Positions 10,499-55,441 of a stretch of DNA of 64,000 bases are shown here, piece by piece. The DNA is from Rugalucina vietnamica. Taxonomy: Eukaryota; Mollusca; Bivalvia; Lucinida; Lucinidae. A model generated the notes under the pieces. It saw only the letters and a list, made by a program, of their open reading frames with translations, was not told the origin of the DNA and did not search any database. The DNA lies in assembly GCA_964017185.1 (NCBI GenBank), contig OZ024872.1:56785817-56849816 (forward strand), read 5' to 3'. The translations under genes were made by a program, and so were the position numbers. The stretch's first letter is position 1. Each line of letters opens with the position of its first letter.

Positions 10499-10663
10499 TT
10501 GACTATAAAATCATCTTTCTTGTGACTAAGACTGACATACAGATCTTCTATTGTTACATTCTCTGCTCCGTGGCGGTGAATACTTTCGAGAGTTTCTTTC
10601 GTTGACTTGGAAAACATGTCTTCTATTAAATGATAATAGCCTAGGTTTTCAGCTGCAGTTGCC
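10499..10663 (-). CDS. DEG/ENaC channel, exon 3 (proximal extracellular domain)
   Basis: This is an internal coding exon of a degenerin/epithelial sodium channel family subunit. On the minus strand an acceptor (TTTTTTACAG) precedes 10663 and a donor (GTGAGT) follows 10499. The exon enters with one base that completes the AA left by exon 2, giving Lys. It then encodes 54 residues containing ENLGYYHLIEDMF, STKETLESIHRHGAENVTIEDL and SLSHKKDDFIV, and leaves in phase 2. In this family the stretch following FPAVTICN ends just before the first conserved extracellular Cys cluster, which fits the SLSHKKDDFIV end. The following exon, expected to begin with that Cys cluster, was not found down to position 1 and probably lies outside the window. 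All three junctions agree in phase, which is strong evidence for a real gene. Confidence 0.85.
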
Positions 10664-10879
10664 CTGTAAAAAGTATGAATGATTATTTCATTTTGTTTGA
10701 AGTTGGACAGTTAACATTTTTTCATTTATGTACATGTAATATGAAGAGATTTCGGTGAGGCGCATTGATTCGTTCTCTTTTCCTCGTCTTTCTCTACCCG
10801 CCTATTATCTAATTTTAATTTGATTAATTGTGTGCTTGAGAAAACACCCATACTTTCTTCCCCACAAAATTAACTCGCG

Positions 10880-10916
10880 TTTTTTTTTTTTTTTTTTTTT
10901 TTTTTTTTTTTTTTTC
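10880..10916. repeat. poly(T) tract
   Basis: A run of about 36 T within intron 2 of the DEG/ENaC gene. It gives rise to a Lys-rich spurious frame on the minus strand. Confidence 0.9.
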
Positions 10917-11639
10917 TTGATTAGACATTTGGAATTTCGATTTACAATATAAATTCTACAATGCAAGATATATATCAGATAATTTACCGCTATGTTATCA
11001 AAACAGGTGTGAAAATGCATTAAATTCTTTCACATTAACCATTAGCTAGTTGGATGGTATACCAACAAACTGTGTGAGTTCTATAAAGCTACCCTAGCTC
11101 TTGTAAAGGCGGTATTATCGAATCATGTTTAAGTAATGTGCCAAAATATAATCTGCAGAAACTGCAATCTTGATCCAGGGATACTGGTGGGAAAATAGAT
11201 TCATCAGGGCAAATCGGGCCAATCAGGACAAAATATATAACAATATTACATTTTTGCTTTACGCATATCCGCTATTGAACCTTTTGTTTCATATCTATGA
11301 ACTGTTTCATATTTATGAACTAGTGTTTTGTAAGGGAACAAGAGTGGGTCAGGTTATGGAAATAAAACAGGCAGTTAGTGCGGGCAGTTTTTTATGTAAT
11401 AACTCGGCAATCACGGTGACTCGAGTTAGATTCCGCCCTCAACATCTCTCTGGACATACATATTGTAAATAAGCCTTTAAGAGCAGTGAGCATATTAATG
11501 ACAAAAGAGGGACGGACCAGAAATAAGTTTTGCAGTTACCAATTCACCAACATGGTGATTCAAATTTACTACAGACTTCTTTACTCATGTTTACTTGCCG
11601 AATCAAAACATCGTCTTATCTTTTATTGAATCAGCTTAC

Positions 11640-11807
11640 TTGAATGCATTCTGATTGCAGATGGTGACGGCGGGAAACGCTAAACTTTGGTTGTAGTTTA
11701 TTTTGACGTTGACGCTGACTGGCCAGTCATAGTAGAACATCACCCGGTCAACTATCTGGTAACCTACGGCGCATACACAGGCGACCACGGTCACGATCCA
11801 CATCAAC
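11640..11807 (-). CDS. DEG/ENaC channel, exon 2 (TM1 and FPAVTICN)
   Basis: This exon encodes the first membrane-spanning helix of a DEG/ENaC (amiloride-sensitive, Na+-selective or peptide/acid-gated) channel subunit in the plasma membrane. The minus-strand acceptor is CGTTTACAG before 11807 and the donor is GTAAGC after 11640. One base (G) completes an Arg codon with any of the four upstream first exons, and 55 codons follow. They begin LMWIVTVVACVCAVGYQIV (TM1), continue VMFYYDWPVSVNVKINYNQ, and end with LAFPAVTICNQNAF. The FPAVTICN motif just outside TM1 is the hallmark of the family. The exon leaves in phase 2 into exon 3. No other copy of this exon is visible in the window although four first exons are. 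Family assignment is firm, but the ligand or subfamily (FMRFamide-gated, acid-sensing, pickpocket-like) cannot be told from these exons. Confidence 0.92.
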
Positions 11808-11818
11808 CTGTAAACGAG

Positions 11819-11940
11819 AGGAGCCGCTGCACGAGAAAACCAACAATTTGGGTTTCCGACCAGATCAGAAACAGAAAAAGGCTAGAAATTGGAAATTTCG
11901 AATCTATGAAGATGAATGATAGTATTATCTTTGTAGCGAA
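11819..11940 (-). mobile_element. truncated GAGCC-type palindromic MITE in intron 1
   Basis: GAGCCGCTGCACGAGAAAACC and the following TTTCCGACCAG and GGCTAGAAATTGGAAATTTC match one half of the family dominating 56-64 kb. The copy stops at about 11940, where the composite foldback element begins. It lies only about 10 bp from the exon 2 acceptor. Confidence 0.65.
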
Positions 11941-12790
11941 AACATATACTTTACAGTGAAAACCTATGTATATCAAAACTTGAAAAAATGGTATTTTCAT
12001 TGATATGAAATTTCACTGATATCAAATCTCACTGATATTAAAAGTAACTAGTGACTGTTATCACATACTTTGACCTATATTTCCACATACTTTGACCTAT
12101 ATTTCCAGCGATAACCTCAAGTTTGCATATGTGATAATGCGTTTCCCGCCCTCTGGTTATCGGCACGGGCGGGCTGATAACCGGGAACCATGCAATTTGA
12201 ATGGAGAGAGGTTATCATGCACGCATGCGACGTTGTCGCGCGACGAAATATGTGACGTCAAGTGAAATGACGTTACGTCAATTTAATGGCGCCATTTTCT
12301 TTTTCTACACAGAAATCGACAATTTTTCGCATTTCTACATAAAAATTCTTTCAAATAGAAGATTTTAAGATGTGATAAACAGATTATAACATGAACATTT
12401 TGGTCATCACCCTTAGTATCAACCCTCGACCATTATCAGCCCTCGAGCTAAAGCTCTCTGGCTTGATAATGGAGTCTCGGGTTGATACTGCGGGCGATTA
12501 CCAAAATGCCCATGTGATAATAATCTCTAAATATCAGTCTATATCTTCACTGTAGATTTTGGATTACTTCTGACGTTTCCATTTACTTGACGTCATTAAA
12601 TTTGTCTCACTTCAGAAATTGAAACGCCTATAACTCCGTTATTTATGAATGAAAACATAAAGTGTGGGTATTCATTTCCTTAGTTAGAACGTAAGGAACA
12701 ATGTGGTACCAAAATTATTTGTGTTTTCAAAAATGTTTGGTTTTTGCATTTTCCCCTCCTGCCATGTGAATTGGAAAATGCCCGTTTATT
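11940..12790 (-). mobile_element. composite foldback element, reverse copy
   Basis: It starts with CTTTACAGTGAAAACCTATG and repeated GATATCA-type motifs (ACTAGTGAC), matching the inverted right end at 31950-32075. The central palindromic module (12375-12530; CATTTTGG...CCAAAATG with TATCAACCCTCGA / TCGGGTTGATAC) is followed by CTGACGTTTCCATTTACTTG. The end carries GGTACCAAAATTATTTGTG and GGAAAATGCCCG, which invert 30660-30745. No open frame. Confidence 0.75.
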
Positions 12791-53533: not shown

Positions 53534-53538
53534 CTTCT

Positions 53539-53772
53539 CCGCCCACTTTGTTTTGAAATCATCTGTTTGGTGCATGTTTGATATACAGTAGCATGTACAA
53601 TTAATATAATCAGCAGTTTGTTGCTTGTAGAGTTTATATATAAATGTACTTATGTGTGTACATTTATGCTGTGCACTGTTTGTTCGCATCGTATGTATTG
53701 TGATTGCTTGTATCCTGATCGGCTTTATAGCCTTTTGGATTTTGTAAATAAACTTACTTACTTACTTACTTA
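53539..53772 (+). mobile_element. LINE-like 3' end, second copy
   Basis: Nearly identical to 41391-41645 (CGCCCACTTTGTTTTGAAAT ... AAATAAACTTACTTACTTAC) with fewer tail units. It continues the sequence interrupted by the 51793 element. Confidence 0.5.
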
Positions 53773-53862
53773 TACAACAGAAAGAAATGGGATTTTGATG
53801 TGTATCGATGGCACAGACGTCTATCAGTTGTGTTGTTATTACTTATTAGGCAAAAAATCAGA

Positions 53863-54012
53863 GCATAAAAGTCAGACCTTTCCCCTTGTTGTGACTCAAT
53901 AAATGGCTATGTCTTGTAATTGTACGTGTATTTTGCATAAAAGTCAGACCTTTCCCCTTGTTGTGACTCAATAAATGGCTATGTCTTGTAATTGTACGTG
54001 TATTTTGCATAA
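53863..54012 (+). repeat. 72-bp tandem duplication
   Basis: GCATAAAAGTCAGACCTTTC through GTGTATTTT is present twice, starting at about 53863 and 53935. Unit 1 at 41735 has it once. 54020-54600 matches 46318-46880. Confidence 0.85.
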
Positions 54013-54652
54013 AATAACCTTTTATAGATGTTAATCGTCAAGGGAGCCAATGTTGTTAGAAATCATTTGAATGGATTTGGCGTTCAATAAAATGGAATAA
54101 ATAATAAAAGCCCTGTTATGACGTCAGTCCCACTGACAAATCAGTGCATTTCAATATTAGAGCAAATGAAACGTGAACAAGTTATATGAAAGACACTTGT
54201 AATTGTCGTAATTAACCAATAACGCACTCTCCTTCGAACAGAATCTCTATTACCAGTCTCACTTTTAATTTACGACCAACTCCCTCCTGGGCCAGCACAC
54301 ACATAAACGGACAAAACACAACTTACGACATAAAACACCGATTCAAACTGCAAGAGAACTACATCCTCGTTGCATTCAGTCAATAATATTTTCATTCTAA
54401 GCAATACATGTATGAGGATTTCAATGCATTGTATGGGAGCAAGTAAGGCATTTACAGGACCGCCACTAAATGCTGTTTTACTGATGATCCCGCTATATCC
54501 AATAAGATTCTCAAGAGTTTAGCAATGATCAGGATCATGTACAACTAGCACAATAGTCTCGTCCTAAAACAAAGGTGGGAAACAACCAAAATGTTATATA
54601 GATACTATTTAGAGTTAAATAGAGAACATCTGCTTTTTTAATGTGAATACCA

Positions 54653-54955
54653 AATATATTTCATCGAGTGAGTTGAAAATATTAGAATTTTCACGAGTGC
54701 GCAGCACGAGTGAAAATTTTGATGTTTTCAACTCATGAGATGAAATGTATTCGGTATTCACCGAAAAAAAATTTTTTTATTTTATACTTTAAACTGAAAA
54801 AGTAGTTCCTCTTCTACAGTGAAGATATAGGCTGATATCAGTCACTAGTGACTTTTGATATCAGTGAGATTTGGTATCAGTGAAACTTCATATCAATGAA
54901 AATACCAATGTTATCAAGTTTTGATATACATTGGTTTTCACTGTAAAGTATAAAA
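54653..54955 (+). mobile_element. composite foldback element, internally deleted copy
   Basis: It has the same left palindrome as 30510-30612 (CATCGAGTGAGTTGAAAA, CGAGTGCGCAGCACGAG) and the same right end as 31950-32075 (GATATCAGTCACTAGTGACT to TTTCACTGTAAAGTATAAAA). The roughly 1.3 kb between them, including the second palindrome and the 161-bp repeats, is missing. Confidence 0.85.
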
Positions 54956-55205
54956 TTAAAAAAAAGGAAAAGTAGTAAAAGCAATGATCAGGAAATGATG
55001 CAATTAGAAAGAGAGTCCTACTCCATAAACCAAGCCGAAAAAAAAAACTGTTTTGCAATAGGTAACCCGGACAAAATGAAATGTATCAAAACATACATAA
55101 GAGGTGCAAACACTACAATAAAGTAACACCAAACCATAAAACATTTAGAACTACAACAAAAGTATCGCATTGGAGCGGCCAGTTACATACAATTATTAAG
55201 CATAC

Positions 55206-55441
55206 CTTCTTATTACGCTCCCACCCTCTGAAATATATCTCAGTCCATGGAACGTAGTCCGATTTGAGAAGTCCTTCAGATTTTCTATCACACTCATTTT
55301 AGGCTGTTTTGCCGATTCCTCTTTCGCGGAAACACTGAAATGCCGCTTATTGTCGCTTGCCCCATCGACAAAAGATGTCCCTTGTTCTGTTCCATTTGAA
55401 AGTTCTGTTGGAACTATTGTGTAATGGTGATTAAGCTCCAT
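55206..55441 (-). CDS. DEG/ENaC channel, candidate first exon, copy 3
   Basis: A 236-nt exon from an ATG at 55441 to donor AG|GTATGC after 55206 encodes 78 residues plus AG. It carries SVIENLKDFSNRTTFHGLRY and ISEGGSVIR. Relative to copies 1 and 2 it has a net in-frame gain of 15 nt in the tail (HFSVSAKEESAKQ in place of HFGESTKQ) and several substitutions, none breaking the frame. Phase 2 fits exon 2. It is the most distant from exon 2 (43 kb). Confidence 0.78.

Follow-up and report, generated by a model that had tools for sequence, protein, structure and literature searches.

A candidate array of alternative first exons in a DEG/ENaC channel gene of the bivalve Rugalucina vietnamica

The a and b variants of ASIC1 and ASIC2, two genes of the DEG/ENaC channel family, arise from separate first exons and promoters. 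They have been named as splice variants (PMC5405051) and swap the first third of the subunit, together with the first transmembrane segment (TM1) and part of the outer domain (PMC9612379). In ASIC1, the re-entrant loop bearing the His-Gly (HG) motif is described as lining the lower pore and as bearing on gating and selectivity (PMC7308080). Protocadherins, UGT1, and GCNT2 are examples of genes with variable first exons in tandem; each first exon of UGT1 has its own promoter (PMC3325998), units of Ugt1, Gcnt2, and Ugt2 undergo birth and death (PMC1885805), and chelicerate Dscam carries tandem 5′ cassettes (PMC4835542). Here we analyze a locus of the bivalve Rugalucina vietnamica, termed gene A, in which four candidate first exons precede the exons of one DEG/ENaC channel. 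The window, meaning the whole stretch of 64,000 nucleotides (nt) under analysis, covers C4:56785817-56849816 (contig OZ024872.1) within a genome of 1.09 Gb in 47 contigs.

Sequence comparison points to one DEG/ENaC gene that probably has two alternative kinds of first exon, one of them tandemly amplified, with each start having its own promoter and being spliced to a single TM1 exon. Flanks of 30 kb per side were added to the window, so that 124 kb were searched around the locus, and genome-wide searches used as queries the channel profile, the TM1 exon, and first exons of either kind. Splice sites were compared with the consensus by eye rather than scored with a trained model. The features of the locus are listed below, with a slash marking the exon border in each donor.

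55206..55441, minus strand: first coding exon of the array kind, copy 55 (79 residues; ATG at 55441; phase-2 end; donor AAGAAG/gtatgc)
47177..47397, minus strand: first coding exon of the array kind, copy 47 (74 residues; ATG at 47397; donor TAGAAG/gtatgc)
38413..38633, minus strand: first coding exon of the array kind, copy 38 (74 residues; ATG at 38633; donor TAGAAG/gtttgc)
15170..15294, minus strand: first coding exon of the second kind (42 residues; ATG at 15294)
11640..11807, minus strand: exon 2 of gene A, with TM1, FPAVTICN, and a phase-2 acceptor
10499..10663, minus strand: exon 3 of gene A, a body exon
9315..9430, minus strand: exon 4 of gene A, a body exon
Outside the window, to its left: exon 5, close to the window edge, and the later body of gene A (second transmembrane segment, TM2, and FIGASML)
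47398..47900 (approximate), minus strand: upstream flank common to the three array copies, shown for copy 47; candidate promoter region
20972..22982, minus strand: pieces like the intron side of unit 47 with no adjoining first exon, read as a probable broken fourth unit

One channel body and four starts in frame

An earlier note on this DNA had placed four minus-strand first exons, each with HG and a phase-2 donor, at 15170, 38413, 47177, and 55206, and had proposed that exon 2 accepts phase 2 and continues into exon 3 in matching phase. Coordinates, phases, and frames were all confirmed. Each of the four exons starts with ATG, is preceded by an in-frame stop no more than 90 nt 5′ of that ATG, and ends in phase 2 before GT; HG is present in 4/4, and FPAVTICN follows in exon 2. 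When any of the four starts is joined to exons 2, 3, 4, and 5, a single stop-free frame results. Tandem first exons of compatible phase therefore precede one common exon set in gene A. Spliced through exon 5, the predicted protein scores 156.9 bits against the Pfam ASC profile without a first exon and 181.7 to 183.2 bits with any of the four (curated cut-off, 23.6 bits), each of which fills profile positions 1 to 22 for a gain of ∼25 bits.

The exon borders of gene A were resolved up to exon 5, whereas the later body was traced piecewise by comparison with paralogs and includes a later open stretch with TM2, FIGASML, and a stop. Compared with solved structures, gene A up to exon 5 matched 28 sequences, with ASIC5 the best, followed by ENaC gamma and ASIC2. 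The GAS and HG motifs are given as marks of DEG/ENaC channels (PMC7308080). By its profile score and its HG, FPAVTICN, and GAS motifs, gene A is a DEG/ENaC (ASIC-like) channel gene.

The body appears to be single. As the earlier note had held, no second exon 2 or 3 was found between the copies: beyond gene A itself and its neighboring paralog, gene B, tblastn over the 124 kb returned only matches of E 0.6 or worse, and hidden copies of these exons within the array units were rejected on the same result.

Two kinds of first exon and the history of the array

The earlier note went too far in assigning each first exon a different N-terminus. Tandem copies of a single exon lie at 38413, 47177, and 55206 and share 81 to 96% of their protein sequence (38/47, 96%; 47/55, 84%; 38/55, 81%). 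Only 3/74 residues differ between copies 38 and 47, copy 55 differs from these two in 16 to 19% of aligned columns (gaps included), and the HG core, TTFHGLRYI, is unchanged in all three. The exon at 15170 is 39 to 46% identical to the array exons over 37 to 41 residues, and is most closely related to the single first exon of gene C, a paralog 10 Mb away (∼60% over 28 to 29 residues). The array exons, in turn, are 72 to 76% identical over 27 to 29 residues to the lone first exon of gene B, which lies left of the window. In an alignment of 31 residues from 13 related first exons, NTT and FGRR are common to 15170 and gene C, as is an S placed two before the F-side residues; RTT and an ending pattern like EEGSVLRR occur instead in the array copies, gene B, and seven others. 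The 15170-kind tail comprises 42 residues and ends TTCHGLRYVALSDSFGRR; the array-kind tail comprises 74 to 79 and ends TTFHGLRYISE.GSVIRR. Judged by these comparisons, the four first exons are of two kinds, 15170 on one side and the tandem array copies on the other.

Because the two tails differ in length and in the residues between HG and TM1, the loop at the lower pore could differ between them. The loop is nearly the same in the three array copies, so that separate expression control, or else dosage, would be the likelier gain there; among these copies, variety of promoters is likelier than variety of gating. The earlier proposal that alternative promoters join different gating N-termini to one channel body is, overall, plausible: the single body, the four in-frame starts, and the selection described below speak for it, but a difference in gating is possible only between the 15170 kind and the array kind.

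The array bears the marks of tandem duplication. Its copies are spaced ∼8.0 and ∼8.8 kb apart, and homology between units runs from ∼1.1 to 1.3 kb upstream to ∼0.2 kb downstream of the exon, with further pieces in the intron. Pairwise identity of the upstream flanks is 71 to 84% at −500 to −200 and 81 to 88% at −200 to −1. Upstream of each array exon lie minisatellites that are alike between units (39868-41050, 49579-50419, and 56607-57460), with repeat units near 30 nt and, in the first two, also of 63 nt. That the array consists of chance open frames or assembly duplicates is next to impossible. The DNA pattern of the HG core is indeed weak alone, with four window sites at ≤1 mismatch and at least four in 3/100 shuffles, but the three copies match at E values of 5e-44 to 4e-34 against the whole genome, and flank divergences (K) of 0.13 to 0.37 are too great for haplotypes; both forms of this explanation, including haplotype duplication, were discarded on these grounds.

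Further pieces of a unit occur closer to exon 2. The intron of unit 47 is matched at 81% by 20972-21438 and at 86% by 22779-22982, with no exon at the expected place. When a 585-nt query from this intron was used, its positions up to 113 matched 15 other places, as a dispersed repeat would, and positions 128 to 585 matched the 20972-22982 locus only. This locus is probably a broken fourth unit, whose second piece may include the dispersed repeat. Copy 38 has a mixed affinity: its upstream flank is nearest to that of copy 55 (K 0.18, versus 0.37 to copy 47), whereas its exon is nearest to that of copy 47 (K 0.03). It looks like a mosaic, as from conversion or unequal exchange.

Two unrelated open frames were also seen in the window. 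The 402-residue frame at 27752-28957 (minus strand) was considered as a host gene that would block transcription and was rejected, as it has 45 genome matches, four others being 100% identical (rounded); it contains a zinc-knuckle-like stretch, as judged by eye, has nothing above the Pfam cut-off, and is probably a recently active mobile element. The open 367-residue frame at 33628-34728 (plus strand) matches DDE_3 and PAX over the cut-off and is transposase-like.

The genome-wide searches place gene A in a small clade. The TM1 exon gave 25 matches at E ≤10. Ten are 60 to 100% identical, near full length, and stop-free (genes A, B, and C and seven paralogs); another three are fragments of two loci that are incomplete or broken (C4:19237266 and C4:19237327; C1:21786423); and the other 12, at 21 to 39% identity, lie in other DEG/ENaC genes. 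Searched with the array peptide, the genome yielded 15 matches at E ≤10; those at E <0.01 number 11 and comprise the three copies, gene B, and the seven paralogs. By position, 11/11 of these lie upstream of a TM1 exon of the clade on the same strand, with no orphan; spread of the first exon by a mobile element was rejected because every one precedes a TM1 exon. The four weaker matches (E 2.6 to 8.6) include 15170 and a repeat at C1:72208047. With the 15170 peptide, seven matches were obtained, the best non-self one being the gene C exon (E 0.005, 59%). The ten TM1 exons of the clade thus stand against 13 recognizable first exons, nine having one each and gene A four.

The clade also offers a setting for the proposed splicing. 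At eight other DEG/ENaC loci, the match to the profile begins at position 1-3 and is unbroken through TM1 (one with an internal TAG). The family thus does not generally have an intron between HG and TM1; this intron is what would allow the N-terminus to be swapped in the clade. The implied first intron of one paralog is ∼24.6 kb (C1:21783722 to 21759164), and long first introns are therefore not odd here.

Gene B has an array-like first exon only, gene C a 15170-like one only, and gene A both, which suggests that the dual start predates the three genes. The trees agree, since 15170 groups with gene C (support, 90/88) whereas the bodies group A with B (83/86), as would be expected if the dual start were older than A, B, and C. 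The two-start arrangement thus probably predates all three genes. A fuller history can be offered tentatively: an ancestor had two alternative exons for the re-entrant loop, of which B kept one and C the other, while A kept both and amplified one with its promoter, and the array now sets both the expression site and which loop lines the lower pore.

Several features of the paralogs were noted in passing. In six of them (C4:17036387, C1:72207645, C1:21758994, C6:21757184, C4:17120127, and C13:42586099), the body is a single long open frame of 880 to 920 residues and a separate first exon is kept, as if intron loss had spared only the first; in the seventh (C4:17059665), the later part looks disrupted. 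In C1:72207645, the end of the first exon and its donor are repeated threefold over ∼200 nt (C1:72208047-72208372), with an open ATG start before the first copy only, perhaps giving competing donors. Gene A carries an insert of ∼450 residues (window −7623 to −6004) between ASC profile position ∼391-403 and TM2. Unusually large and just before the pore helix, it has counterparts in genes B and C and the six paralogs, and it gave no Pfam match above the cut-off.

Selection on the copies and the proposed use of the array

Comparison of the array copies points to purifying selection on the encoded protein. Synonymous and non-synonymous changes number 4 and 3 for 38/47, 7 and 10 for 38/55, and 11 and 8 for 47/55, giving ratios of non-synonymous to synonymous divergence (dN/dS) of 0.19, 0.37, and 0.17 and one-sided binomial p values of 0.04, 0.055, and 0.0006, respectively. 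The 47/55 pair (dS 0.279, dN 0.048) also yields p 0.04, uncorrected for three pairs, when one member is taken as neutral. The array exon has a single indel, of 15 nt and in frame, amid flank stretches with 3 to 10 indels each. A neutral simulation left all three copies open in 0/20,000 runs, and in 0.6% with substitutions alone; it is a rough one, based on Jukes-Cantor, rates and indels from the 3′ intron, and one indel in three in frame. For 15170 and gene C, 0.84 of synonymous and 0.31 of other sites differ over 28 codons, indicating that 15170 is also kept as protein. On these measures there is protein-level selection on the copies, and it is clear for 47/55.

What such selection means depends on the channel body to which the exons belong. 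The array exons might be relics of a lost neighboring channel gene, never joined to gene A, given their greater closeness to the gene B exon than to 15170 and their distance of 26.6 to 43.4 kb from exon 2. However, a search with queries for exons 2 to 9 found no convincing remnant of these around the array, the best match near the copies being 20 residues at 37847 (E 0.11). In another search, with seven paralog frames as queries and matches listed for three, those at 22977 and elsewhere reflect non-channel sequence with which one query frame begins. The selection between copies, moreover, is later than their duplication. Since no exon 2-9 was found with any unit, it is best read as acting on exon-only units, and a relic origin is very improbable. 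With no other body found and no unit seen to carry one, the selected copies would probably serve as starts of gene A.

An ordinary two-start gene, using 15170 and one array exon (most likely 47 or 55) while the other copies decay, is an unlikely but serious alternative. Copy 38 fits it best: by eye its donor is poorer, it has extra out-of-frame ATGs just upstream, and its own changes, polarized with copy 55, comprise two to three non-synonymous and no synonymous ones, so that it is perhaps relaxing. The exon-less pieces at 20972-22982 also fit decay. On the other side, 47 and 55 appear constrained in both members, and three frames with their GT donors survive amid flanks with many indels. The condition of copy 38 weighs against the amplified-start reading that we favor, as do four further points. 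The 38/47 and 38/55 pairs failed the test for constraint on both members (p 0.20 and 0.40); the different nearest copies of the flank and exon of copy 38 imply conversion, which muddies the rates; tree supports are moderate, and the tree of first exons, built from 31 columns, places 15170 and gene C on long branches; and the evidence that B and C each lack one kind of start comes from two protein searches of the genome.

The array exons could instead lie internally, as mutually exclusive coding exons that share one untranslated exon and one promoter further upstream. Possible acceptors just 5′ of the ATG are TATTTTGACAG, present in each of the three copies, and GCATGCGCAG, present in 47 and 55. 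However, inspection by eye of the 13 first exons showed no consistent pyrimidine-rich acceptor ahead of the ATG, and the upstream flank is similar between copies for ∼500 nt and more, which makes this arrangement improbable. Separate promoters are suggested by that same conservation of the upstream flanks.

Under the favored reading, of alternative starts with one kind amplified, the array exon and its upstream flank would have been duplicated in tandem, without the channel body, to give three exon-bearing units and probably the broken fourth. Transcription would begin at a separate promoter for each start, every transcript carrying one first exon, whose phase-2 donor would be spliced to the TM1 exon at 11807; the remaining first exons, on which no clear acceptor was seen by eye, would be skipped. 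Splicing from the array would span 26.6 to 43.4 kb. The product would be a constant channel body with either a 42-residue or a 74- to 79-residue tail, with possible effects on gating, trafficking, or expression site.

Comparison with known first-exon systems

The earlier note took the layout to be new to the family, which holds in part. Alternative N-termini are already known in ASIC1 and ASIC2 (PMC9612379), and first-exon arrays in protocadherins; the array in a DEG/ENaC gene would be the new part. No tandem first-exon array in a DEG/ENaC gene was found among the best-ranked literature matches, which is weak evidence of novelty, as they mostly leave subscription journals uncovered. By word search, "first exon," "promoter," and "splice" are absent from a DEG/ENaC review (PMC10148893). 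If the favored reading is true, a gene that swaps the loop alone while TM1 and the outer domain stay the same would offer a natural experiment on loop function, and the distribution of two starts over three sister genes would cleanly illustrate how alternative first exons are partitioned after gene duplication.

The closest counterparts within the family are ASIC1a/ASIC1b and ASIC2a/ASIC2b, in which, as proposed for gene A, one DEG/ENaC gene swaps an N-terminal part that includes the HG re-entrant loop and keeps the rest common. Unlike in ASIC1 and ASIC2, the swap in gene A would be limited to the cytosolic tail with HG, the TM1 exon (11640-11807) being common, and 3/4 of the starts are tandem copies. 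In this respect gene A resembles the clustered protocadherins, UGT1, and GCNT2, where tandem first-exon units precede common exons and units are gained and lost. It differs from them in having three near-identical copies and one divergent exon, in the small size of the variable part (42 to 79 residues), in encoding an ion channel, and in that its promoters are only predicted. Chelicerate Dscam is likewise an invertebrate gene with tandemly arrayed 5′ cassettes, but it encodes a cell adhesion molecule rather than a channel.

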